Origin: Helicobacteraceae bacterium
GTDB taxonomy: Bacteria; Campylobacterota; Campylobacteria; Campylobacterales; SZUA-545
Reading direction: 5' to 3'
DNA length: 34,146 nucleotides
NCBI GenBank assembly: GCA_031286325.1
Contig: JAITUT010000031.1
Coordinates: 1-34,146 of the forward strand
Both the position numbers and the translations under genes were made by a program. Of this stretch, positions 5,730 through 22,421 are shown in pieces; within the stretch, counting starts at the first letter, position 1; the number at the start of each line of letters is the position of its first letter. Below the pieces are notes generated by a model, which had not been told where the DNA came from, ran no database searches, and was given only the letters and a program-made list of their open reading frames with translations.

Positions 5730-6116
5730 ATGGCTTCCTACTTCGGCGCGTTTTTTTTGTTGCTTTTGACGTTCGGCGCATTCACGGCGACTGTCGCGCT
5801 CTCGGCGTGGCTCTTTAATACGAGATCGCTTAGAAACGATCTCAAACTCAAGCTTTCGGTCTATGAGTGCGGTCCGGAAACCTCGTTGCAGCCGAACCGC
5901 ATTAGTTTGCAGTTCTACCTTTACGCGCTCTTATTCATTTTGTTTGATGTGGAGATTATCTTTATGTTCCCGTGGGCGGTAGCGTTTAAGGATTTATCTT
6001 CAAGCGGCGAGGGGGCGGCGGCGTTCTGGGGAATGATTATCTTTTTGGGAATACTTGCGATCGGATTCATCTACGAGTGGAAAAAAGGAGCGTTAAATTG
6101 GCACAACATCAAGTAA
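5730..6116 (+). CDS. nuoA: NADH-quinone oxidoreductase subunit A
   Basis: Small membrane subunit of complex I beside the quinone channel, with three membrane helices. The 128-residue product has the conserved [20 protein letters not shown] segment and the following [13 protein letters not shown] helix with its Asp/Glu pair. AAAAGGGG precedes the ATG. It is the first gene of the nuo operon and overlaps nuoB by 19 nt. Confidence 0.97.
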
Positions 6117-6607
6117 ATTACGCGGCTTCGGCGGGGCTGCCTGTGGCGCTTACAATGGCGGATACTTTGGTAAATTGGGGGCGATCAAACTCGCTTTGGT
6201 ATCTCACATACGGGCTTGCGTGTTGCGCGATTGAGATGATGGCGGTCGGCGGCGGGCGCTTTGACTTTGACAGGCTGGGCACGATCTTTCGCGCTTCGCC
6301 GCGCCAAGCGGAGGTAATGTGCGTGGCGGGTACCGTGAGCAAAAAGCACGCGCCGTTCCTGCGCCGCCTTTATGAGCAAATGGCGGAGCCTAAGTGGGTA
6401 ATATCAATGGGCAGTTGCGCCAACACAGGCGGGCTTTTTAACACCTATTCAACGGTGCAAGGCGTGGATCGCATAATTCCTGTGGATATTTATCTGCCCG
6501 GTTGCGCGCCCCGCCCCGACACATTGATTTACGCAGGAATGATGCTCCAGCGCAAAATCCGCTCCGAGAAGATGGATCGCCGCGTTAGCGCGAAAAGGTT
6601 TGTCTGA
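6098..6607 (+). CDS. nuoB: NADH-quinone oxidoreductase subunit B
   Basis: Hydrophilic connecting subunit carrying cluster N2, which passes electrons to quinone. Visible ligands are the adjacent Cys pair in [11 protein letters not shown], the Cys in MGSCANTGG, and the Cys in [11 protein letters not shown] start it at TTG 6098-6100. GGAG lies 7 nt upstream, and the resulting [15 protein letters not shown] matches the N-terminus expected of Campylobacterota NuoB; an upstream in-frame ATG at 6077 would add seven residues inside nuoA. Length is 169 residues. The stop overlaps the nuoC start (TGATG). Confidence 0.95.
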
Positions 6608-7398
6608 TGTATAGAAAATACACCCCCAAAGGCGATGTGCAGAAAAAGTCCTATCACACCGATCGCTTCTACGCGCCGAAAGAGATCGTAAAAGAGGCGA
6701 TTGAAGATTCGGCAGTGAAAGCCGACATTGACGCCTTGACGGCAAAAACGGGCGTGGAGAAATCTTTCTTTATGCGCGGCGAGGCGATCGTCTATGTGGC
6801 GTCGGAGAAGGTCAAAGAAGCCCTGCGCTTTTTGCAATCTTGCGGCTGGACGCAACTAATGGAGATGAGCGCGGTAGATTACCTCGCGGAGCGCGGCGAA
6901 TTTGAGCTTTTTTACGAGCTTCTTAGCGTGGAGAAAAACCGCCGTATGCGCCTTAAAACGATCGTGAGAGACGGCGAGGCGATCGAGAGCGTAGCCGATC
7001 TGTGGCGATCGGCTAATTGGTCGGAGCGCGAGTGTTACGATATGTTTGGTATTATTTTTAACAACCACCCGCATTTGCGCAGGATTTTAATGCCCGACGA
7101 TTGGGTTGGCTTTCCGCTCCGCAGAAGTTATCCGTTGCAGGGCGACGAGCACGCGCGGTGGTATGAGGTGGATAAAATTTTCGGCAAAGAGTTTCGCGAC
7201 AAAATCGGTCCTGAAAACCGCGATCCCGCGCGCGTAGATCGCGACGATACGATCAACTTCGCGCGGCTTGGCTACGAGGTGAAATCAGGCGAGCCGCCCA
7301 AAGACGAGCCCACGCCGATCACATACCTTGAAAAGCCCTCTATTCTCTACTCGGACTTTGACCCGAAAAAGCAAAAAGTGCTGGATAAAAGGAAGTAA
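6607..7398 (+). CDS. nuoC: NADH-quinone oxidoreductase subunit C
   Basis: The 30-kDa peripheral-arm subunit that packs against NuoD. The 263-residue protein has a long N-terminal extension before the core fold, the family signature [16 protein letters not shown], and [19 protein letters not shown] charged C-terminal tail of about 70 residues follows. It is a separate polypeptide, not fused to NuoD as in E. coli. The start overlaps the nuoB stop by one base. Confidence 0.95.
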
Positions 7399-7399
7399 A

Positions 7400-8629
7400 A
7401 TGAGGCAATTTCCGAACAGATTAGAGCCGTTTTACGAGAACATCGCCTTTGATCGCGACGACAACACAATGATCTTGAATTTCGGTCCGCAGCACCCCAG
7501 CGCGCACGGGCAGTTAAATTTGATTTTAGAGTTGCGCGGCGAGGAGATCATTAAATCGCGCCCGAATATTGGCTTCTTGCACCGCGGCGTAGAGAAAATG
7601 GCGGAAAATATGATCTACAACGAGTTCTTGCCCGTAACCGATCGTATTGATTACATTAACGCCACGTCAAACAACTACGGCTTTGCTTTGGCGGTTGAAA
7701 AGCTGCTGGGCATTGAGGCGCCGCGCCGCGCGCAAGCGATCAGAATGGTTTTGTTGGAGTTAAGCCGCATTACGAGCCATTTGTTATTCCTCGCGACCCA
7801 CGCCCTTGACGTCGGCGCGATGAGTATGTTTCTCTACCCTTTCCGCGATCGCGAATACGCGCTTGATTTGTTTGAGGAGTATTGCGGGGCGAGATTTACG
7901 CACAATTCGATCAGAATCGGCGGCGTCCCTCTTGACTTCACGGAGGATTGGATCAAGCAGTGCCTCGCGTATGTGGAGAGCTTGCCGAAAGAAATTGAGA
8001 TGTATGACGCGCTCCTCAAAGAGAACCGCATTTGGCGTATGCGCCTTGAGGGGATCGGCTTGGTGAGCAAAGAGCTGGCGATGAGCTGGGGTTTAAGCGG
8101 CGTGCTCTTGCGCGGCAGCGGCGCGCAATGGGATTTGCGCAAAGAGCAACCATACTGCCTCTACAACGAAGTTGATTTTGAGGTGCCGTTCGCTACGGAG
8201 GGCGACTGTTACGCGCGTTACCGCCTCTATATTGAGGAGATGTGGCAGTCGATTAGCATCATTAAGCAAGCTCTGAAAATTTACGAGGATACCCCGCCCG
8301 AAATTATGGCGCGCGCCCCCGAATACATCAGCGCGCCCAAAGAGCAATTGATGACGCAAAATTACTCGTTAATGCAGCATTTTGCGCTCATTACGCAAGG
8401 AATGCGCCCGCCCAAAGGCGAAATTTATGTCGCCACCGAATCGCCCAAAGGCGAGCTGGGCTTTTACATTACGAGCGACGGAAGTCCGTATCCGCGCCGC
8501 GTGAAAGTGCGGGGACCTAGCTTTTTTCATTGCGGGCTTTTGGAGGATTTGTTGGTAGGACACCAGTTGGCGGACGCGGTGGCGATCATCGGCAACACGA
8601 ACATAATTTTCGGCGAGATAGATAGGTGA
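7400..8629 (+). CDS. nuoD: NADH-quinone oxidoreductase subunit D
   Basis: The 49-kDa subunit, related to [NiFe]-hydrogenase large subunits, that forms the quinone pocket with NuoB. Core motifs are [12 protein letters not shown] near the N-terminus, [12 protein letters not shown], and the C-terminal [19 protein letters not shown] ending GEIDR. The ATG at 7400 follows AAGGAAGTAAA and lies 1 nt after the nuoC stop. The frame is open further upstream but only as a shadow of nuoC. Length is 409 residues, normal for an unfused NuoD. Confidence 0.97.
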
Positions 8630-8633
8630 GGCT

Positions 8634-8870
8634 ATGAAACGATTTGATTTGCGGCGGGCGGAAAATGTGATGGAGCGTTTGCAACGCATTATTATAGACG
8701 ATGTGGATCAAGGCGAGGCGGCGATCTTTATTTACGAGGTCGCGGAGAATTTCGCTCTCGTCCAAGAGAGCGCGGATTTAATCAAAAAGTTGGATTTTGA
8801 GCTAATTAACTCGCTGAAATACAATGAGGTAGATTGGACGATCTGCGTGCGCAAACCAATTAGGCGTTAG
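8634..8870 (+). CDS. Small NuoE-position protein (Cj1575c-like)
   Basis: A 78-residue protein in the slot where nuoE normally sits. It resembles from memory the Campylobacter Cj1575c family: a short acidic/helical protein ending in NSLKYNEVDWTICVRK. It has one Cys only and none of the four Cys that bind cluster N1a in true NuoE, so it cannot be a standard 24-kDa subunit. GGTGAGG precedes the ATG, and spacing to nuoD and the next gene is 4 nt each. It probably stabilises or docks the alternative electron-input module; this is inferred from position only. Confidence 0.8.
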   Translation: MKRFDLRRAENVMERLQRIIIDDVDQGEAAIFIYEVAENFALVQESADLIKKLDFELINSLKYNEVDWTICVRKPIRR

Positions 8871-8874
8871 AAGA

Positions 8875-10872
8875 ATGACGGCTCCTTGGTTTAGTTCATG
8901 GCGCGGCAAAGTGGTGGATAATCGCGCGCGCGAAACCGCGGATTACGAACGCTCCGAGTTGCGTTTGCCCGCGCAATTTGACGGCGATCGCAAGGCTAGG
9001 GCGTTTATAGGCTGGGACGGCGTGGGCGTCTTTGACCCCGAAATTGACATTCTGCGCTTAGCGAGCGAGTACGTTTCGCAATACCAAAACTACTCCGAAG
9101 CGTGCGGACGTTGTATGCCGGGTCGCGCGGGCGGCAGGATTTTGTTCGACATTTTAGACAAGATCGCGCGCGGCGAGGGCGAAAAAGAGGACCTTGAAAA
9201 GTTACGATCCGCGATCGGCGTTATGAAGCTTTCAGCCAAATGCGAGATCGGGCGCACTGTGCCAAACGCGATAGATCACCTATTAACGCACTTTGGCGCG
9301 GAGTTTGATCAAGCGATCCGCGAGAAAAAACGGGGTAAAGAATATGGCAAACGATTTGAATACGCCGCCAAAATCACCGCGCCGTGCGTAGACGCTTGCC
9401 CTGATCGCGTGGATATTCCGGCGTTTATCGAGGGGGTACGCGATCGCAATCCGCTCGCCAGCCTCGCCGCCACGCGGAAATTTATGCCGCTCGCGCATAC
9501 TTGCGGCAGAGTTTGTCCGCACCCGTGCGAGGACAGTTGCAGGCGCGGGAATTTGGACGCGCCGCTATCAATTATGGAGCTCAAAAGAATCGGCGCGGAC
9601 TACGAAGATCGCTACATCGGCGGGATAAATCACGCGATTCGCAAAAAGCCTCCGATCGGCAAAAAAGTAGCGATCGTGGGCGCGGGACCCGCAGGCTTGA
9701 CCGCGGGATATTATTTGGCGATGAACGGCGCGGAGTGCGATATTTTTGAGGCGTTGCCTGTCGCGGGCGGCGAAGTAATGGTAGGCGTACCCGAATACAG
9801 AATGCCCGTCAAAAAATATTTGGCGGACATCAAACTCGTAGAGGATAGCGGGGCGAAAATTCACTTAAATTCGCATATTGATTCCGCGAAACTGCTGAAA
9901 ATGGAAAAAGAATACGACGCGATCTTGCTCGCGTATGGCGCGAGAATCTCGAAGAAACTTCATTGCGAAAATGAAAACGAGAAGTTAAAGGGCTATTGGA
10001 GCGCGATAAATTTCTTAGATCAAATTAACTTATACGAAAAGTTCGGCATCGGCGAGAAAGTAGATTTCACGGGCAAGACGATCGTCTGCGTCGGCGGCGG
10101 CTTTACAAGCATAGACGTCGTCCGCTGCGCGATCCGCGCAAACGCGAAGCGCGTGATAATGCTCTACCGCCGCAGCGAAAAAGTGATTATCCAAAACACA
10201 AGCGCCGAGGAGTACCACGAAGCCGTAGAAGAGGGCGTGGAGTTTATGTTTAGATCGGCGATCGCGAAGATCATTGACGAAAAGGGCGTAATCAAGCGCG
10301 TTTTATGCAACAAATTTAAGATGATAGAGGACCCAAACGGCGGCAGACCGCAACTTACGAAATTAGAGGGCGCGGACTTTGAGATTAAATGCGATTATGT
10401 GATCCCCGCCGTGAGCCAAGAGTCGGACAATTCAATTTTGCCGCCCGAATGGGAGATTGAGCTAACGAGCTGGGGGACGATCAAGACGGACGGCAAAACT
10501 TACGCCACCAACAAAAAGGGCGTATTCAGCGCGGGCGACTGCGAGTACGGTCCTATGACGATCGTTAATGCCGTAGGGCAGGGCAGGCGCGCGGCGAATG
10601 TCGCGTTAAATTACCTGCAAACGGGCGAGATTAAACGACAAAACGACGAGGTAATGGAGGATTTGCTAAGAACGTTTAGGGTCTTTCATAAAGACGAAAA
10701 AATTTCGGGCTATTTAGGCGGCGCGAAACGCGGCGAGAGCGCGAAGCTATCGGTAAAGGAGCGCAAAGACAACCACCGCGAAGTCAAATTCGCCTTAGAC
10801 GCGGCGACGGCTTACGAAGAAGCCTCGCGCTGTATGCGCTGCTACTATATCGCGATGGTGGCTCTGCGATGA
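8875..10872 (+). CDS. NuoF C-domain / GltD-like NAD(P)H oxidoreductase fusion
   Basis: A 665-residue electron-input flavoprotein replacing NuoF. Residues 1-145 resemble only the C-terminal iron-sulfur part of NuoF: EACGRCMPGRAGG (Cys77, Cys80) and a later Cys123. The FMN/NADH-binding domain is missing. Residues about 165-255 are a glutamate-synthase-beta/DPD-type helical 4Fe-4S domain (Cys171, 175, 210, 214, 218, 222). Residues 265-580 form the two-dinucleotide-fold oxidoreductase: FAD site VAIVGAGPAGLTAG, NAD(P) site VCVGGGFTSID followed by YRRSEK, whose Arg pair is like NADPH-using GltD, and GVFSAGDCEYGP. The tail carries CMRC (653-656). It starts 4 nt after the NuoE-like gene and overlaps nuoG by 4 nt. 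Its donor (NADPH, NADH or ferredoxin) is not proven. Confidence 0.85.
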   Translation: MTAPWFSSWRGKVVDNRARETADYERSELRLPAQFDGDRKARAFIGWDGVGVFDPEIDILRLASEYVSQYQNYSEACGRCMPGRAGGRILFDILDKIARGEGEKEDLEKLRSAIGVMKLSAKCEIGRTVPNAIDHLLTHFGAEFDQAIREKKRGKEYGKRFEYAAKITAPCVDACPDRVDIPAFIEGVRDRNPLASLAATRKFMPLAHTCGRVCPHPCEDSCRRGNLDAPLSIMELKRIGADYEDRYIGGINHAIRKKPPIGKKVAIVGAGPAGLTAGYYLAMNGAECDIFEALPVAGGEVMVGVPEYRMPVKKYLADIKLVEDSGAKIHLNSHIDSAKLLKMEKEYDAILLAYGARISKKLHCENENEKLKGYWSAINFLDQINLYEKFGIGEKVDFTGKTIVCVGGGFTSIDVVRCAIRANAKRVIMLYRRSEKVIIQNTSAEEYHEAVEEGVEFMFRSAIAKIIDEKGVIKRVLCNKFKMIEDPNGGRPQLTKLEGADFEIKCDYVIPAVSQESDNSILPPEWEIELTSWGTIKTDGKTYATNKKGVFSAGDCEYGPMTIVNAVGQGRRAANVALNYLQTGEIKRQNDEVMEDLLRTFRVFHKDEKISGYLGGAKRGESAKLSVKERKDNHREVKFALDAATAYEEASRCMRCYYIAMVALR

Positions 10873-14790: not shown

Positions 14791-15786
14791 ATGGGCGAAA
14801 TGACGATAGATATAATCGCCACGATCGTAAAAGCGGTGATCGTGGTCTTGGTATTTTCCGCTTTGGCAGGGTACGGCACCTACATTGAGCGGCGCGTTCT
14901 GGCGTTTATCCAGCGCAGAAAGGGTCCTATGCACGTAGGACCGCTGGGGCTCTTGCAGATCGTAGCGGACGGGATCAAGATGTTTACAAAAGAGAACATT
15001 ATCCCGCGCCGCGCCTTTAAGCCTATATTTTTTATCGCGCCGATTATTACCGTAGCGACCGCGTTTGTCGCGATGAGCGCGGTGCCGCTTTTGCCGCCGT
15101 TTACGATATTTGGCTACGAAGTCAAGCCGATCGTAGCGGACGTGAATGTCGGGGTTTTATTTGTAATGGGCGTAATGGCGGCGGGGCTTTACGGACCGCT
15201 TTTGGGCGGCATCGCCTCTATGAACAAATATTCGCTGCTCGGCGGCGCGCGCGTGGCGATTCAGCTAATCAGTTACGAAGTAGTTTCAGGTCTCGCGATA
15301 ATGGCGCCAGTTTTGCTCGTAGGATCGCTGTCTTTAATTAACATTAACGACTATCAAGCGGGCGGGATTACCGATTGGCTTCTTTGGAAGCAGCCTTTGG
15401 CGTTCGCGTTATTTATGATGGCTGGTTACGCCGAGACAAACCGCACCCCGTTTGATTTAATGGAGCACGAGGCGGAGATCGTAGTCGGTTACGCCACCGA
15501 GTATTCGGGGATTCATTGGGGTTTGTTCGCGATCGGCGAATACGCCAATATGTTCACAATGAGCTTCTTAATTTCGCTGTTGTTTTTGGGCGGCTACAAC
15601 GACTTTTATTTTATACCGGGCGCGATCGCGATCATCTGCAAAGTTGCGTTCTTTTTCTTTTTCTTTATTTTGGTGCGCGGCGCGTGGCCCCACGTGCGCC
15701 CCGACCAACTGATGTGGCTGTGCTGGAAAGTCTTGATGCCGCTTGCGGTAATCAATGTGTTAATCACCGCTTTCGCGGTTTTTTAA
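14791..15786 (+). CDS. nuoH: NADH-quinone oxidoreductase subunit H
   Basis: Membrane subunit linking the peripheral and membrane arms and forming much of the quinone tunnel; about eight helices. The 331-residue protein shows ERRVLAFIQRRKGPMHVGP, LLQIVADGIKMFTKE, NRTPFDLMEHEAEIVVGY with its conserved acidic residues, and a C-terminal RGAWPHVRPDQLM. The ATG follows AAAAGGG and lies 3 nt after the nuoG stop. Confidence 0.97.
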   Translation: MGEMTIDIIATIVKAVIVVLVFSALAGYGTYIERRVLAFIQRRKGPMHVGPLGLLQIVADGIKMFTKENIIPRRAFKPIFFIAPIITVATAFVAMSAVPLLPPFTIFGYEVKPIVADVNVGVLFVMGVMAAGLYGPLLGGIASMNKYSLLGGARVAIQLISYEVVSGLAIMAPVLLVGSLSLININDYQAGGITDWLLWKQPLAFALFMMAGYAETNRTPFDLMEHEAEIVVGYATEYSGIHWGLFAIGEYANMFTMSFLISLLFLGGYNDFYFIPGAIAIICKVAFFFFFFILVRGAWPHVRPDQLMWLCWKVLMPLAVINVLITAFAVF

Positions 15787-15795
15787 GGAGCGCAA

Positions 15796-16380
15796 GTGGA
15801 AGCTAAGCAAGGTTATTTTCAAGTAAAGATCGCGCCGTATCCCACGACAAATTTGGGGCGTTTTAAGCAAGTCGTAAGGCGATCGCTGGGTATTGAATTA
15901 CTCATCGGGCTTTGGCGCGTCTTTAAGGTAATGGTAAAAGACCCTACGCACACCACAATCTACCCTATGGAGCGTTTGCCGTTATCTAAACGATACCGCG
16001 CGATCCACAAACTATTGCGCTTGTTGGAGAGCGACGGGGAACGTTGCATTGGTTGCGGCTTGTGCGAAAAAATTTGCCCCGCGAATTGTATACGAATGGA
16101 TACGGAGCGAGGCGCTGATTCGCGCAAGAAAGTCAGAGACTACACGATCAACTTCGGACGTTGTATCTATTGCGGCTTGTGCGCGGAAGTCTGCCCCGAA
16201 ATCGCGATCGTGCACGGCGACCGCTTTGAGAATGCGAGCGAGCAGCGCGCGCACTTTAGCCTTAAAGAAGATATGCTGACTTTGCCCGAGGGGGTGAAGC
16301 TGCAAAAAGAGTTTGACGGCTTTGGCTCGCTTAGCAAAGACGCGGACAAAAATCTTAAAAAGACGCCCACGGCGTATTAG
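15796..16380 (+). CDS. nuoI: NADH-quinone oxidoreductase subunit I
   Basis: Peripheral-arm 8Fe ferredoxin subunit carrying clusters N6a and N6b, which pass electrons to NuoB. Both 4Fe-4S motifs are intact: CIGCGLCEKICPANC and CIYCGLCAEVCPE. The start is GTG at 15796-15798 with AAGGAG 5 nt upstream. Length is 194 residues, with an N-terminal amphipathic region and a hydrophilic tail. Confidence 0.96.
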   Translation: MEAKQGYFQVKIAPYPTTNLGRFKQVVRRSLGIELLIGLWRVFKVMVKDPTHTTIYPMERLPLSKRYRAIHKLLRLLESDGERCIGCGLCEKICPANCIRMDTERGADSRKKVRDYTINFGRCIYCGLCAEVCPEIAIVHGDRFENASEQRAHFSLKEDMLTLPEGVKLQKEFDGFGSLSKDADKNLKKTPTAY

Positions 16381-16388
16381 GAGCAAAG

Positions 16389-16904
16389 ATGTTTGAGGCA
16401 GTGGGTTTTTATTTTTTCGGCTTCGTAACGGCGGCGGCGTTTTTGGCGGCGATATTGGCGCGCCAGCCTATCTACGCCTTTACCGCGCTGGCGACGGGAA
16501 TGATCTTTGTCGGCGGCTTGTTTTTCACGCTCGGCGCGGATTTTATGGGCGTGGTGCAGATCGTAGTCTATACGGGCGCGGTAATGGCGCTATATGTCTT
16601 CGGTATGATGTTCTTTGACACATCAAAAATGGTCGAAGAGGAGATCAAAAATCAAAAGCTAGTCGTCTTTTTGAGCGTGGCGATCGCGCTTTTCGCGGTG
16701 CTTGCGATATGCGGCGCGAATATGGCGTTTAACTCTCCGCCCGCATCCGAAGACAACACAAAAGCTATCGGATTTACGATCTTTAAGGAGTATATTTTAC
16801 CCTTTGAAATTTCAGGCTTGTTGCTCTTGACGGCGATGATCGCGGGGATCGTACTCGCTAGCAAAAAAATGGAATATAGCGTGGCGGAGGAGCGTAAGAA
16901 ATGA
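16389..16904 (+). CDS. nuoJ: NADH-quinone oxidoreductase subunit J
   Basis: Membrane subunit with about five helices beside NuoH and NuoK. The 171-residue protein has the diagnostic VVQIVVYTGAVMALYVFGMM helix with its pi-bulge region. The start follows TAGGAGCAAAG. Its stop overlaps the ATG of a 37-codon intergenic ORF (ATGA). Confidence 0.95.
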   Translation: MFEAVGFYFFGFVTAAAFLAAILARQPIYAFTALATGMIFVGGLFFTLGADFMGVVQIVVYTGAVMALYVFGMMFFDTSKMVEEEIKNQKLVVFLSVAIALFAVLAICGANMAFNSPPASEDNTKAIGFTIFKEYILPFEISGLLLLTAMIAGIVLASKKMEYSVAEERKK

Positions 16905-17014
16905 GAAATCTTTCGCTTGCAAATGAAACCTTGAAACCCGCCGCCCGTCATTGCGGCGAAACCCTCGAGTCCGCAATGACGCGATCGGCGCGAGAAATTA
17001 AAGGATCGAAATAA
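16901..17014 (+). CDS. 37-residue ORF filling the nuoJ-nuoK gap (doubtful)
   Basis: The whole gap between nuoJ and nuoK is an open frame. Its ATG overlaps the nuoJ stop (ATGA) and its TAA overlaps the nuoK ATG (TAATG). The product begins MRNLSLANETLKPAARHCGE and is basic, with no known domain. The central part encodes an inverted repeat, so the ORF may be a by-product of a repeat insertion kept in frame. The opening (ANETL) resembles that of the ORF between nuoK and nuoL (ANKTL). I would not assume it makes a functional protein. Confidence 0.3.
   Translation: MRNLSLANETLKPAARHCGETLESAMTRSAREIKGSK
16946..16981. repeat. Palindromic repeat between nuoJ and nuoK
   Basis: Perfect 11-nt arms CGTCATTGCGG (16946-16956) and CCGCAATGACG (16971-16981) with a 14-nt loop. 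This is the form of a dispersed extragenic palindrome. There is no T-run after it, so it is not a clear terminator; it could modulate mRNA stability between nuoJ and nuoK. Confidence 0.7.
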
Positions 17015-17319
17015 TGGAAATTACCTTAAATCACTATCTCGTTTTAAGCGCGGTTTTATTCGCGATCGGCTTGACGGGCGTAATGCGGCGGCAGAATTTG
17101 CTAATGCTCTTTTTCGCCACCGAAATCCTCTTGAACGCCGTGAATGTCGGCTTAGTCGCCGCCTCGCGCTATTTGGGCAATATGGACGGGCAGATGTTCG
17201 CCTTTTTTATTGTGGCGATCGCGGCGGCGGAGGTCGCGGTGGGGCTTGGGCTTTTAATTTTGCTCTACAAACGCAAGGGATCGCTCGATCTCAATGTGAT
17301 TAAGAATATGAGAGGCTGA
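17014..17319 (+). CDS. nuoK: NADH-quinone oxidoreductase subunit K
   Basis: Small antiporter-like (MrpC-related) membrane subunit with three helices. The 101-residue product has the two conserved membrane Glu residues expected of the family, in ATEILLNAVNVG and AIAAAEVAVGLGL. AAAGGATCGAAATA precedes the ATG. It is flanked on both sides by short-ORF insertions, unlike the tight spacing elsewhere in the operon. Confidence 0.95.
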   Translation: MEITLNHYLVLSAVLFAIGLTGVMRRQNLLMLFFATEILLNAVNVGLVAASRYLGNMDGQMFAFFIVAIAAAEVAVGLGLLILLYKRKGSLDLNVIKNMRG

Positions 17320-17321
17320 AA

Positions 17322-17531
17322 ATGAGAAGCGAGTTGTTTGCAAACAAAACCTTATGTTCCAGCCGCGATCGCGGCAATACAGCGGCGATGAGCAGCGCGG
17401 CGGGCGAAAATCGCGCGACTGGGCGCAGCGGCAAATTTCAAGGTTTCCAAAGGCGAGGGGGCGAAGAAACGCGAACCGTCTTGCGGAGCTCTTTGATCGC
17501 AGCGGGAATTTTATCCCCGCGAGAAGTTTAG
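17322..17531 (+). CDS. 69-residue ORF in the nuoK-nuoL gap (doubtful)
   Basis: Starts 2 nt after the nuoK stop with GAGG 8 nt upstream, so it is placed for coupled translation. The product starts MRSELFANKTLCSSRDRG and is Ser/Arg/Gly-rich, with no membrane segment or recognised domain. Its end supplies GGAGGG, which serves as the nuoL ribosome site. The same ORF type recurs, decayed, before the YwqK lipoprotein (same-frame GFQRQ versus GFQRR), so it belongs to a dispersed repeat family. It may be coding or only tolerated spacer. Confidence 0.35.
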   Translation: MRSELFANKTLCSSRDRGNTAAMSSAAGENRATGRSGKFQGFQRRGGEETRTVLRSSLIAAGILSPREV

Positions 17532-17544: not shown

Positions 17545-19419
17545 ATGGAAGCGCTTGTTCTCATAGCATTATTTTCTCCGCTCGCGGGATCGCTCTTTGC
17601 GGGGCTATTCTTCGGCTCGCGCGAGAAAAACCCGATCGCCGGCGTTGTGCCGTGCCTGCTTCTGGGCGTTTCAATGATCGCCTCGTTTATCCTGCTTGCG
17701 CATATTTACACAAGCGGCGAGGCGGTGCGCGTCAAACTCTTTGACTGGATCAACTCAGGGCATCTAAACCTCGCTTTCGGTTTCGCCGCCGATCAAATCA
17801 GCGTAGTAATGATGGCGGTCGTTACGATCGTCTCTACGATCGTGCACGTTTATTCCGTAGGCTATATGGCGCACGACAAAGGCTTTAACCGCTTTTTCAG
17901 TTACCTCAGCGCGTTTGTTTTCTCAATGATGACGCTCGTAATGAGCGACAACTTTTTGGGGCTTTTTATAGGCTGGGAGGGCGTTGGGCTCTGCTCATAT
18001 CTGCTCATTGGCTTCTGGTATCACAAGCCGTTCGCCTCTTGGGCGGCGAACGAGGCGTTTATTATGAACCGTATCGCCGATCTGGGAATGCTCTTGGGTA
18101 TTTTCTTAATTTATTGGCACACGGGGTCGCTTGAATACACAACAGTCTTTGACAGAATGCGCGAACTTGAGATCGGTATCTTGCAGTGGATCGCGATCTT
18201 GCTCTTTATAGGCGCAATGGGCAAATCGGCGCAATTTCCTTTGCACACTTGGCTTGCGAACGCGATGGAGGGTCCTACGCCCGTTTCCGCGCTAATCCAC
18301 GCCGCTACGATGGTTACGGCGGGGGTTTATCTTTTGGTGCGCGCCAGCCCGCTTTACACGATCACAAGCGATGTGAGTTTATTTGTCGCGCATTTGGGGG
18401 CGTTTGTCGCGTTTTTCGCGGCGAGTATGGCGTTGGTGGCAACCGACCTTAAACGGATTATCGCCTACTCCACGCTCTCGCAGCTTGGCTATATGTTTGT
18501 CGCGGCTGGGCTTGGTTACTATTGGATCGCGCTCTTTCACCTAATGACGCACGCGTTTTTCAAGGCGCTGCTCTTTTTGGGCGCGGGCAACGTAATGCAC
18601 GCGATGCACGACGAGCTTAACATTCGCAAAATGGGCCGCCTCTACGCGGCGATGAAGCCCACGGCGATAATGATGACGATCGCGTCAGTCGCGCTCGCGG
18701 GGATTTATCCTTTCGCGGGCTTTTTCTCAAAAGACAAAATCCTTGAAGTCGCTTTCGGCAGCGGTAATGCTTTAATCTGGGCAGTTTTACTTACGACCGC
18801 GGCTATGACGGCGTTTTATAGCTTCCGCGTAGTGATGATGGTATTTTTCGGCAAAGAAGCGAACTACGAAAAACTCCACATTCACCCGCACGAAGCGCCG
18901 AAATTTATGCTGGTAGCGATCGCGCCGCTGGCGATTCTCGCTGTGATCGCGGGATTTTTCGAGCATTTTTACAGCGATCTTGTGAGCAAAATGCTCAAAG
19001 TCAATATGCCCGAAATGGATCACTCAATCGCGATCGGCTTGATATTTTTGACCCTCGCGATCGTGCTGGCTTCAATAGGTTTCGCCGTCTGGCGTTACCA
19101 ATTTAAGGGCGGTTTTGCCAAAAGCTGGCAACAAAACCCAGTATTCAAATTCCTCTCAAACGAGTGGTTTATACCTGCGCTCTACAAAAAGGCGATTATC
19201 GCGCCGTATATGAAGTTGAGCGAAATCGCGTGGATTAAAATGGACTTAAAGGCGGTGGATTTTATGGTGGATATGGTCGCAAAACTCGTGATGACGGCGA
19301 GCGGCAAACTCAGAGAGACCCACACGGGGAGCCTCTCTTATATGTTGCGTTGGATGGGCGCGGGCGTTACCGCGCTGCTCGCGATCGTCTTTATCGCGCG
19401 ATTTTTTAAAGGAGTGTAA
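17545..19419 (+). CDS. nuoL: NADH-quinone oxidoreductase subunit L
   Basis: Distal antiporter-like proton-pumping subunit with a lateral helix at its C-terminus. The 624-residue protein has GWEGVGLCSYLLIGFWY with the conserved Glu, the helix-7 region AQFPLHTWLANAMEGPTPVS with Lys just upstream (MGKSAQF), and FFKALLFLGAGNVMHA. AGGAGGGAAGC precedes the ATG. Length is normal for the family. Confidence 0.97.
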   Translation: MEALVLIALFSPLAGSLFAGLFFGSREKNPIAGVVPCLLLGVSMIASFILLAHIYTSGEAVRVKLFDWINSGHLNLAFGFAADQISVVMMAVVTIVSTIVHVYSVGYMAHDKGFNRFFSYLSAFVFSMMTLVMSDNFLGLFIGWEGVGLCSYLLIGFWYHKPFASWAANEAFIMNRIADLGMLLGIFLIYWHTGSLEYTTVFDRMRELEIGILQWIAILLFIGAMGKSAQFPLHTWLANAMEGPTPVSALIHAATMVTAGVYLLVRASPLYTITSDVSLFVAHLGAFVAFFAASMALVATDLKRIIAYSTLSQLGYMFVAAGLGYYWIALFHLMTHAFFKALLFLGAGNVMHAMHDELNIRKMGRLYAAMKPTAIMMTIASVALAGIYPFAGFFSKDKILEVAFGSGNALIWAVLLTTAAMTAFYSFRVVMMVFFGKEANYEKLHIHPHEAPKFMLVAIAPLAILAVIAGFFEHFYSDLVSKMLKVNMPEMDHSIAIGLIFLTLAIVLASIGFAVWRYQFKGGFAKSWQQNPVFKFLSNEWFIPALYKKAIIAPYMKLSEIAWIKMDLKAVDFMVDMVAKLVMTASGKLRETHTGSLSYMLRWMGAGVTALLAIVFIARFFKGV

Positions 19420-20958
19420 GTGTCTAATATCTTGACAATTCTGATATTTCTGCCGCTAATAGCCGCGATCCTATGCTTTTTCATACCCAAAGAGCAGATC
19501 AGGCTTTACGCGATCGGCGTGGCGGCGGTGGAGCTTTTTATCGCGCTTAGTCTGTGGTGTCTCTTTGACTACAACGCGGCGCAAGATTTGCAATTTGTGA
19601 AGCAAGTAACGATCATAGAGCCGCTCGGCATAAGTTATTATGTCGGCGTTGACGGCATTTCGTTATTTTTAGTCGTCCTAAGCGCCTTTATTACGCTAAT
19701 TGCGATCGTGGGCTTGGGCGATTTGGAGCGGCTCAAAAACCTTACGGCGTCAATTTTCGTGCTGGAAATGACGATGATCGGCGTATTTTGCGCTATGGAC
19801 GTCATTTTGTTTTACTTTTTCTGGGAGTTTTCGCTCGTGCCGATGCTATACATTATCGGCGCGTGGGGGAGCGGCAACAGAATTTACGCGGCGGTTAAAT
19901 TTTTCCTATATACCTTTATCGGATCGCTCTTTTTGTTGCTCGCGATCATTTATTTAGCGTGGTTTTTCTACTCGCAGACGGGTGTAATTACATTCAATTT
20001 GCTCGAATGGTATCGCCTCGCTACGCCATACGAGCTGCAACTCTGGCTCTTTATCGCAATGGGCATAGGCTTCGCGGTGAAAGTTCCGATGTTCCCGTTT
20101 CACACTTGGCTGCCTTACGCGCACGGGCAAGCGCCCACGATCGGCTCCGTGTTGCTGGCGGCGGTACTCTTGAAAATGGGAACTTACGGTTTTGTTAGGT
20201 TTAGCTTGCCGCTCTTTCCAGACGCCTCCGTCTATTTTGCGCCGTTTATGGGCTGGCTTGGAATTATAATGGTGATCTACGCCGCGATGATCGCGTTCGC
20301 GCAAAAAGACATCAAACAAGTTATCGCTTACAGCTCAATTAGTCATATGGGCGTAATTATCTTGGGAACTTTCGCGCTGAACCCCGAGGGAATCGGCGGC
20401 TCGGTCTTTTTTATGTTAAGCCACGGGATCATTTCGGGCGCTTTGTTTATGCTAGTCGGCGTGATCTACGATCGCCGCCATACGAAGCAGATGAGCGAAT
20501 TTGGCGGGATCGCGAGCGTGATGCCTATATATTCGGCGATCTTTATGTTTATGGCTATGGCTTCGGCGGGCTTGCCGCTCACAATGGGCTTTATCGGCGA
20601 GTTTTTGTCGCTGCTGGGTTATTTTAGGTCAAGCCCCGTAATGGCGTTGCTCGCGGGCACTTCAATAATTTTGGGCGCGGTCTATATGCTCAACCTCTAT
20701 CGCAAAACTTTCTACGGCGCGGTTGTCGTTGAAGAGAACAAGAATCTCAAAGACTTAAACCGCCGCGAGCTTTTCGCCCTTGTGCCGCTCGTCTTGGTCG
20801 TGGCGTGGCTGGGGATTTACCCCAAGCCCGTGCTTGCGCCGATTGACGCGGCGAGTAAAAGTATCGTGCAAATTATGTATATGCGCGCTACCGATAACAG
20901 GGACGCGACAAAGGATCGTCTGGCGCAAGTTAATCAGCCTATGGTAGGGGGACGATAA
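19420..20958 (+). CDS. nuoM: NADH-quinone oxidoreductase subunit M
   Basis: Middle antiporter-like proton-pumping subunit. The 512-residue protein has the conserved Glu in FFWEFSLVPMLYIIGAWG, Lys in GFAVKVPMFPFHTWLP, and HGQAPTIGSVLLAAVLLKMG. The start is GTG at 19420 with AAAGGAG upstream, directly after the nuoL TAA. Confidence 0.97.
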   Translation: MSNILTILIFLPLIAAILCFFIPKEQIRLYAIGVAAVELFIALSLWCLFDYNAAQDLQFVKQVTIIEPLGISYYVGVDGISLFLVVLSAFITLIAIVGLGDLERLKNLTASIFVLEMTMIGVFCAMDVILFYFFWEFSLVPMLYIIGAWGSGNRIYAAVKFFLYTFIGSLFLLLAIIYLAWFFYSQTGVITFNLLEWYRLATPYELQLWLFIAMGIGFAVKVPMFPFHTWLPYAHGQAPTIGSVLLAAVLLKMGTYGFVRFSLPLFPDASVYFAPFMGWLGIIMVIYAAMIAFAQKDIKQVIAYSSISHMGVIILGTFALNPEGIGGSVFFMLSHGIISGALFMLVGVIYDRRHTKQMSEFGGIASVMPIYSAIFMFMAMASAGLPLTMGFIGEFLSLLGYFRSSPVMALLAGTSIILGAVYMLNLYRKTFYGAVVVEENKNLKDLNRRELFALVPLVLVVAWLGIYPKPVLAPIDAASKSIVQIMYMRATDNRDATKDRLAQVNQPMVGGR

Positions 20959-22421
20959 TGCTTCAATTTGACTTTACCTTGCTTTTGCCTGTTTTGGCGT
21001 TGGTTTTGGGCGGTATCGCGATCTTGGCGATTGACCTGTTTGTCAAGGATGTTCAGCGCGGATTTTTTGTGGCGGTTACGATGATCTCGCTTATCGTGAG
21101 TTTGGCGTTGCTATTTTTTGTGGATTTAGCGCGCGATAGTTTCTATAATATGCTCCTCATTGACGGCTTAACGCAGGCTTCGCAGTGGATTATTATCGGC
21201 GCTTCATTGCTCTTTATCCCGCTCGCGTTAACAGGCGTGAGGTTTTTAGAGTATCAATTCGCGGAATTTTACGCGCTATTTTTGTTTATGGTCGCGGGAT
21301 TCGCCCTTATGGTTTCGAGCAACAACCTCGTGATGATTATGCTGGGGCTTGAAACCGCCTCCCTCGCTTTATACGCGATCATCAGTATGCACCGCCGCGA
21401 CAAATCGCTGGAATCGGCGATCAAGTATTTCACAATGGGCGCGCTGGCGGCGGGGCTTATGGCGTTCGGCGCGATGCTCCTCTACGCGGCGACTGGCAGC
21501 TTAAATCTCGCCGAAATTGAGCGCGTCTTTATAAACAGAGGCGGCTCGGATACCGCGCTAATTCTCGCCGCAAGCGCGTTTCTGCTGGCGGGAATCGGCT
21601 TCAAACTTTCAGTCGTGCCCTTTCACACTTGGACGCCCGATGTCTATGAGGGATCAAGCGCGCCAATGGCTGGCTATATGTCGATCGTGCCGAAGATCGC
21701 GGGTTTTGCCGTAGCGATCCGCGTCTTTGACTTTTTGGCGGACAGCGGCGATCAGATCGTTTATATGCTGTTGTTTCTCGCCGCCGCCGCCACGATGACA
21801 ATCGGCAACTTACTGGCGCTCGTGCAAGACGGCGTAAAGCGAATGTTAGCTTACAGCAGCGTTTCGCACGCGGGGTTCGTAATCGGCGCTTTGGTAATTT
21901 CCACAACGGAAGCGCACATCGGCTTATTCCTCTACTGGACGCTCTTTTTATTCACAAACCTCGGCGCCTTTTCTATGCTCTGGCTCACGCGCCATTCAAG
22001 CAAAGTCTGGGATATTCGCTACGATCACCCATACACGAAATTCGCGGGAATGGTCAAAATCAGCCCAATGGGCGCGGTGATAATGGCGATCTTTATGCTT
22101 TCGCTCGCGGGAATCCCGCCGTTCGCGCTCTTTTTCGGCAAAATTTACCTAATCGGCGAGGCGCTCCGCACCGATCACATCTGGCTCGCGATAATAATGC
22201 TCGTCAATAGCGCGATCGCGGTCTATTACTATTTGAAGCTCATCGTCTTTATGTTCCTGCGCGATCCTACGGAAAATGACGGCACGATCTACTACCAAAA
22301 CGGTACGCTCGCGCTGAAATTGGTACTCGGCGTTGCGGCGTTCGCGGTCGTAACTTCGGCGTTTTGGACGGGCGCTTTCATAGATAATCTCGCGCCGATC
22401 TTGGCGGCGGCAGGGTTTTGA
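20958..22421 (+). CDS. nuoN: NADH-quinone oxidoreductase subunit N
   Basis: Antiporter-like proton-pumping subunit next to NuoK. The 487-residue protein has GLETASLALYAIISMHRRD (conserved Glu), GFKLSVVPFHTWTPDVYEGS (Lys), and KRMLAYSSVSHAGF. The ATG overlaps the nuoM stop by one base (TAATG). Its own stop overlaps the nadE TTG start. Confidence 0.96.
   Translation: MLQFDFTLLLPVLALVLGGIAILAIDLFVKDVQRGFFVAVTMISLIVSLALLFFVDLARDSFYNMLLIDGLTQASQWIIIGASLLFIPLALTGVRFLEYQFAEFYALFLFMVAGFALMVSSNNLVMIMLGLETASLALYAIISMHRRDKSLESAIKYFTMGALAAGLMAFGAMLLYAATGSLNLAEIERVFINRGGSDTALILAASAFLLAGIGFKLSVVPFHTWTPDVYEGSSAPMAGYMSIVPKIAGFAVAIRVFDFLADSGDQIVYMLLFLAAAATMTIGNLLALVQDGVKRMLAYSSVSHAGFVIGALVISTTEAHIGLFLYWTLFLFTNLGAFSMLWLTRHSSKVWDIRYDHPYTKFAGMVKISPMGAVIMAIFMLSLAGIPPFALFFGKIYLIGEALRTDHIWLAIIMLVNSAIAVYYYLKLIVFMFLRDPTENDGTIYYQNGTLALKLVLGVAAFAVVTSAFWTGAFIDNLAPILAAAGF

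Follow-up and report, generated by a model that had tools for sequence, protein, structure and literature searches.

A NuoF–GltD fusion protein in Campylobacterota complex I operons as a candidate NADP(H) port, and the apparent NuoG1 ancestry of the Helicobacter pylori 'NuoF'

The complex I operon in the window (the whole 34,146-nucleotide stretch of DNA analysed here, from a Helicobacteraceae bacterium) encodes, in its 'nuoF' slot, a 665-residue protein in which the C-terminal Fe–S domain of NuoF is fused to a GltD-type module (hereafter named FUS). Our analysis suggests that FUS probably belongs to a proton-pumping complex I as one of its subunits and forms the NADP(H) port of that complex, in a reversible NADP(H):menaquinone reaction without bifurcation. 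Complexes I with alternative front ends are already known, namely the NuoX/NuoY type, an 11-subunit form (PMC11238625) and Nuo-Bfu. In a literature search run without subscription papers on Sulfurimonas and Campylobacter genomes, FUS in complex I was nowhere described, an earlier mention being possible. The same search found no description of a NuoG1 origin for NuoY, the name used here for the protein occupying the nuoF slot in genomes without FUS. If true, an NADP(H) module in complex I would provide free-living Campylobacterota, those with the rTCA cycle among them, with a way to connect NADPH and the quinone pool.

The window contains a complete nuoA–N operon, with nuoA–D and nuoH–N all present as in NDH-1 (Table 1). 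The gene order is nuoABCD, nuoX (the 78-residue gene in the 'nuoE' slot), FUS, two nuoG genes and nuoH to nuoN. The FUS and nuoG1 frames show an ATGA-type overlap (10869-10872), and the reading frames of nuoG1 and nuoG2 overlap as well. Neither PF01257 nor PF01512 was found in the nuo operon, which thus encodes no canonical NuoE (N1a) or NuoF (FMN, four-cysteine N3). A 69-codon ORF without a Pfam match lies between nuoK and nuoL (17322-17531).

Table 1. Features of the nuo operon in the window (positions are those of the window)
Feature	Position	Strand	Remarks
nuoA	5730-6116	+	
nuoB	6077-6607	+	
nuoC	6607-7398	+	
nuoD	7400-8629	+	in-frame ATG at 7400 within listed ORF 7328-8629
nuoX ('nuoE' slot), 78 aa	8634-8870	+	PF16514; relative of H. 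pylori HP1264 (2LXR); no N1a ligands
FUS ('nuoF' slot), 665 aa	8875-10872	+	NuoF C-terminal Fe–S domain plus GltD/StnC-type Fe–S, FAD and likely NADP(H) module
FUS NuoF-C (N3) domain	9094-9312	+	PF10589; Cys77, Cys80 and Cys123 retained, Gly83 for the third ligand
FUS Fer4_20 double-cluster domain	9376-9609	+	Cys171, 175, 210, 214, 218, 222; Lys237
FUS FAD and NAD(P)H Rossmann domains	9661-10584	+	PF07992; Arg309; Y-R432-R433 in the nucleotide Rossmann fold
FUS C-terminal Cys653-x2-Cys656	10831-10842	+	alignment with CxxC of NfnL (4ylf_B) and 9bov_A
nuoG1, 693 aa	10869-12950	+	conserved ligand sets; C-terminal part homologous to H. pylori 'NuoF/NuoY'
nuoG2, 614 aa	12943-14787	+	NuoG kept by lineages without FUS
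nuoH	14791-15786	+	
nuoI	15796-16380	+	two 4Fe–4S
nuoJ	16389-16904	+	
nuoK	17014-17319	+	
nuoL	17545-19419	+	
nuoM	19420-20958	+	
nuoN	20958-22421	+	

A Pfam search of FUS returned PF10589 (the NuoF Fe–S region; residues 74-146), PF14691 (residues 168-245) and PF07992 (residues 263-570), and no PF01512 FMN domain. Residue conservation was scored in an alignment of 87 FUS homologues. Within the N3 motif CGRC-x-PG-R...C, Cys77, Cys80 and Cys123 were invariant, and the position of the third ligand cysteine was occupied by Gly83 in 87/87 sequences, showing that the N3 site has three cysteines. In the 'nuoE' slot, the 78 residues of NuoX match PF16514 (NADH-UOR_E) across their full length (E = 8.6e-26); this is the Pfam family of the epsilonproteobacterial 'NuoE', and an NMR structure (2LXR) is available for its H. 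pylori member, HP1264. The single cysteine of NuoX, C71, is conserved in only 1/98 sequences, so NuoX offers no N1a ligands, and its cysteine was ruled out as donor of the missing N3 ligand for the same reason. HP1264 was reported to bind FMN in vitro despite having no conserved cysteines (PMC6269979), and thus there may be a second flavin site at NuoX besides the FAD of FUS. The original prediction, made from the DNA letters, of a 665-residue NuoF-C/GltD fusion that has lost the FMN domain, preceded by a 78-residue protein without N1a ligands and next to two NuoG proteins, was therefore borne out; its further statement that the C-terminal Fe–S part of NuoF is kept holds for the domain but not for the third N3 cysteine.

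We then considered the GltD part, which contains Cys171, Cys175, Cys210, Cys214, Cys218 and Cys222, with Cys653 and Cys656 at the C-terminus of the protein. The FUS cluster cysteines, Lys237, Arg309, Arg432 and Arg433 are invariant in the 87 sequences, the end bearing Cys653/Cys656 being missing in one row. The nearest solved relatives, by sequence and by the fold of an AlphaFold2 model (pLDDT 77, pTM 0.72; weak around the clusters), are the GltD–NuoG subunits of NfnABC/StnABC (9bov_A, 9n5u_A and 8oh5_C). The C-terminal CxxC of FUS aligns with a CxxC that NfnL (4ylf_B) has upstream of the domain and 9bov_A has downstream of it, and we propose that Cys653-x2-Cys656 completes the distal cluster. 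The cysteines may be divided between two clusters after the pattern of dihydropyrimidine dehydrogenase and NfnL. Arg309 lies at the position of StnC Arg239 and NfnB R201, and R432-R433 sit where NADPH-dependent relatives have YRR. Lys237 aligns with StnC Lys170 and with NfnL Glu126; this register was extended three or four residues beyond the printed ends of the 8oh5_C and 5jca_L alignments, with no gap there, and is concordant with the longer 9bov_A alignment. Because of Lys237, R309, R432-R433 and the fold matches, the GltD module can be assigned to the StnC/NfnABC type, and its nucleotide is likely to be NADP(H).

StnC (8OH5, 9BOV and 9N5U) thus shares with FUS the two-cluster Fer4_20 domain, the FAD and NADP Rossmann folds, the lysine (K170), the arginine (R239) and a CxxC after the module (as in 9bov_A). 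The two proteins differ in context. The GltD module of StnC is an insertion within a NuoG and feeds NuoG-type clusters and the soluble bifurcating StnAB, whereas in FUS it is fused to a NuoF-C remnant within a membrane complex I operon; the FMN core of StnA/StnB (HydC/HydB-like) is absent here. In Stn, the electrons of NADPH take a linear path from FAD via C7 and C6 to the NuoG clusters, the FAD is described as non-bifurcating, and Lys170 coordinates the flavin-proximal cluster in one state, a mutation showing its importance for activity (PMC10482914). In NfnL the ligand to the proximal cluster is a glutamate, which has been linked to the coupling of both branches (PMC9503767), whereas FUS has lysine in 87/87. 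Having the StnC-type Lys237 instead of the NfnL glutamate speaks for linear NADPH chemistry and against bifurcation at the FUS FAD.

In the mechanism that we favour, NADPH and the FAD in the GltD module would exchange a hydride, and the electrons would pass one at a time to the flavin-proximal 4Fe–4S cluster (Cys175, Cys214, Cys218 and probably Lys237). From there they would move to the distal 4Fe–4S cluster (Cys171, Cys222, Cys653 and Cys656) and then through NuoG1, NuoG2, NuoI and NuoB to menaquinone, no bifurcation taking place at the FUS FAD. Electron relay through N3 is doubtful since the site lacks one ligand; it might hold a modified cluster, or the relay might no longer be obligatory, and the NuoF-C domain would be retained mainly for docking the module onto a NuoG. 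The reaction would be reversible, with NADPH oxidation running downhill or NADP+ reduction from menaquinol being driven by the proton-motive force. The absence of a PntB transhydrogenase from the window genome and the presence there of two POR-type 2-oxoacid oxidoreductases support such an NADP(H) port.

The same genome (2.05 Mb, 98% complete) was searched for other NuoE and NuoF proteins. One strong NuoE-type and one FMN-domain NuoF-type protein were found, adjacent on contig C64, and the single PF01512 match of the genome lies in hoxF, HoxF being its only FMN-domain protein. Next to the pair are encoded a HoxU-like protein, a protein resembling hydrogenase small subunits and the large subunit of a nickel hydrogenase, indicating that the pair belongs to a HoxEFUYH hydrogenase and not to complex I. 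A nuoE/nuoF pair elsewhere in the genome, which the original prediction had named as evidence against itself, hence exists in letter only. The hydrogenase cluster is of the NAD-linked [NiFe] HoxEFUYH type (genome G000, contig C64, L003:3453-8255, - strand).

A protein search detected FUS in 81/298 sampled Campylobacterota genomes. The window's own copy counted in, 65 of the 81 are full length with 56-100% identity; of the others, eight have a shorter N-terminus, one is partial and matches residues 258-663 only, and seven carry an insert between NuoF-C and GltD. An insert of about 50-290 residues at this place was seen in four loci (L171, L172, L174 and L175; family f2, genera g41 and g19), and that of L174 has no Pfam match. 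An alignment-based scan of a GTDB collection, not all of whose hits were inspected, gave 401 stretches encoding FUS relatives. The best 80 of these 401 include Sulfurimonas, Sulfuricurvum, Hydrogenimonas, Nitratiruptor and Thiovulum, and 54 of the 80 loci have the order nuoABCD-nuoX-FUS-nuoG1-nuoG2-HI, the rest being mostly cut by contig ends. Among the same best 80, the nearest relatives are MAGs labelled Helicobacteraceae, whose names resemble those of termite-gut studies. On this genomic distribution, the FUS design is standard in sulfur- and hydrogen-oxidizing relatives of Campylobacter, across many Campylobacterota families. The prediction had allowed that the fusion might prove to be a standard and characterized form; it is standard in many families, but no characterization was found in the literature searched.

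ATP citrate lyase is present in 62/81 genomes with FUS versus 13/217 without it, as expected if FUS supplies NADPH for autotrophs, and the association follows family lines. The lyase is absent from the window's family and from the FUS-bearing f2 genomes. A strict tie of FUS to rTCA autotrophy was ruled out, since families f1 and f2 have FUS without ATP citrate lyase.

Several other readings of FUS have to be weighed. A bifurcating or confurcating input, in which the FAD couples NADPH with ferredoxin/flavodoxin (or NADH) in an NfnL-like or Nuo-Bfu-like manner, is unlikely. The GltD-type modules of NfnSL do bifurcate and R309 is found at the NfnB R201 position, but the invariant lysine is that of the non-bifurcating StnC rather than NfnL Glu126, the operon has no NfnS partner, and the FMN core that bifurcates in Stn and Bfu is missing. 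A precedent is the Nuo-Bfu proposed in Geobacter, with BfuABC as a bifurcating input (PMC9304861). As in the FUS complex I, the NADH module is swapped there for another redox module; BfuABC, however, has retained the FMN core, with NADH and ferredoxin as its predicted substrates, whereas no Bfu subunit, and in particular no BfuB with an FMN domain, is encoded in the FUS operon. The original prediction had proposed NADPH, or a bifurcation-like reaction, as electron entry; NADPH stands as the likely nucleotide, but Lys237 in 87/87 and the lack of a HydB/BfuB-type FMN core argue against the second half. That the nucleotide is instead NADH, within an otherwise identical architecture, seems very improbable. 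The second Rossmann motif of FUS reads GGGFTS, not GxGxxA, and so differs from the textbook NADP motif, but R432-R433 are invariant at the YRR position of NADPH-dependent relatives, and in the closest solved relatives the corresponding module works with NADP(H).

We also give little credence to the idea that FUS is a soluble NADPH:acceptor oxidoreductase, like SfrAB or Nso, merely encoded within the nuo operon. The NuoF-type domain contacts NuoG in complex I, and FUS has retained such a domain; it also holds a fixed position between nuoX and nuoG1, overlaps nuoG1 in the ATGA manner, and has been lost jointly with the Fe–S half of NuoG1. In favour of a soluble enzyme, the GltD–NuoG pairing is known from the soluble StnABC, NsoABC and SfrAB, the last being a GltD-like plus NuoG-like pair from Geobacter that acts as an NADPH:Fe(III) oxidoreductase (PMC7483475). 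SfrAB is set apart from FUS by its description as a soluble two-subunit enzyme with no complex I. Finally, as in Campylobacter, all electrons could in truth come from ferredoxin or flavodoxin, with a GltD module that is vestigial or regulatory. Weerakoon and Olson reportedly found in 2008 that the C. jejuni complex I uses flavodoxin (as related in PMC6682613 and PMC4178425), and the two POR-type enzymes would fit such a donor. This reading is nevertheless highly doubtful, as none of the FAD, nucleotide and cluster residues varies among the 87 sequences, and the flavodoxin-using kind of lineage has lost the GltD module.

The NADP(H)-port reading involves two NuoG proteins, and NuoG1 and NuoG2 both keep the ligand sets for N1b, N5 (His plus three Cys), two ferredoxin-type 4Fe–4S clusters and N7. 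NuoG2 of the window is clearly shorter than most of its relatives (about 740-850 codons), although its frame is open and meets nuoH directly. The NuoX/NuoY complex I (C. jejuni Cj1575c/Cj1574c, H. pylori HP1264/HP1265) shares with the FUS operon the slot, the NuoX family PF16514 and the lack of an NADH module, but it lacks a GltD module and has a single full NuoG. The window has NuoX in its nuoE slot but not NuoY in its nuoF slot. NuoY was compared at 11 loci: L167:989-2038 (H. pylori), L165, L168, L170, L173 and L176-L181. The NuoX of L167 is identical to 2LXR over 75 residues, identifying the locus as H. pylori or a very near strain and its nuoF-slot protein as HP1265.

The NuoY genes span 219-361 codons between stops. 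In 11/11 loci NuoY matched the NuoG1 profile (31-219 bits, versus 4-80 bits for NuoG2), and no match to FUS was obtained at these loci; 2200 shuffled control sequences reached at most 5.3 bits. In the reverse search the NuoY profile matched 69/69 NuoG1 proteins, with a median of 195 bits. The match is confined to the C-terminal part of NuoG1, the Fe–S domains being gone. Judged from these profile matches, HP1265, the 'NuoF' of H. pylori, descends by truncation from NuoG1, as do its counterparts, and they are neither NuoF nor fusions. Such an ancestry accounts for a subunit that had long gone unexplained and assigns the 'NuoF' implicated in flavodoxin oxidation to another part of the enzyme. 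A clear structural prediction for the Campylobacter and Helicobacter enzymes follows from it.

Both FUS and the Fe–S part of NuoG1 are missing in 11/11 NuoY loci. In a tree of the NuoG1 C-terminal part a single NuoY clade was rejected (p-AU 0.001, several NuoY rows being long branches), and with it a single origin of NuoY; the NuoG2 tree intermixes the FUS and NuoY states, requiring at least six changes. The simplest account would be that the combination of FUS with a full NuoG1 predates the NuoY state in this order, and that FUS disappeared jointly with the Fe–S half of NuoG1 at least twice. The exact number of losses is uncertain because some branches are long and nuo genes may have been transferred. 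A wider scheme can be offered tentatively: the complex I of most free-living Campylobacterota might be a three-way hub that, under the proton-motive force, connects NADP(H), ferredoxin/flavodoxin and menaquinone via two NuoG in series. The flavodoxin type of Campylobacter and Helicobacter would then be derived from it, the NADP(H) branch having been lost repeatedly and a NuoG1 relic, annotated as NuoF, having stayed behind. NADP(H) would enter via FUS and NuoG1, low-potential carriers near NuoG2/NuoX, and the NADP(H) branch may be dispensable in host-associated heterotrophs.

Two minor observations concern the NuoY lineages. The N7 ligand cysteines are absent from more than half of the NuoG rows compared; C243 is present in 5/12 of these rows (the window included), whereas NuoG2 adjoining FUS retains the N7 cysteines in 63/64. 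One genome (G056, family f10; locus L170) encodes, in addition to NuoX/NuoY, a full-length canonical NuoF elsewhere, and perhaps has two complexes I.
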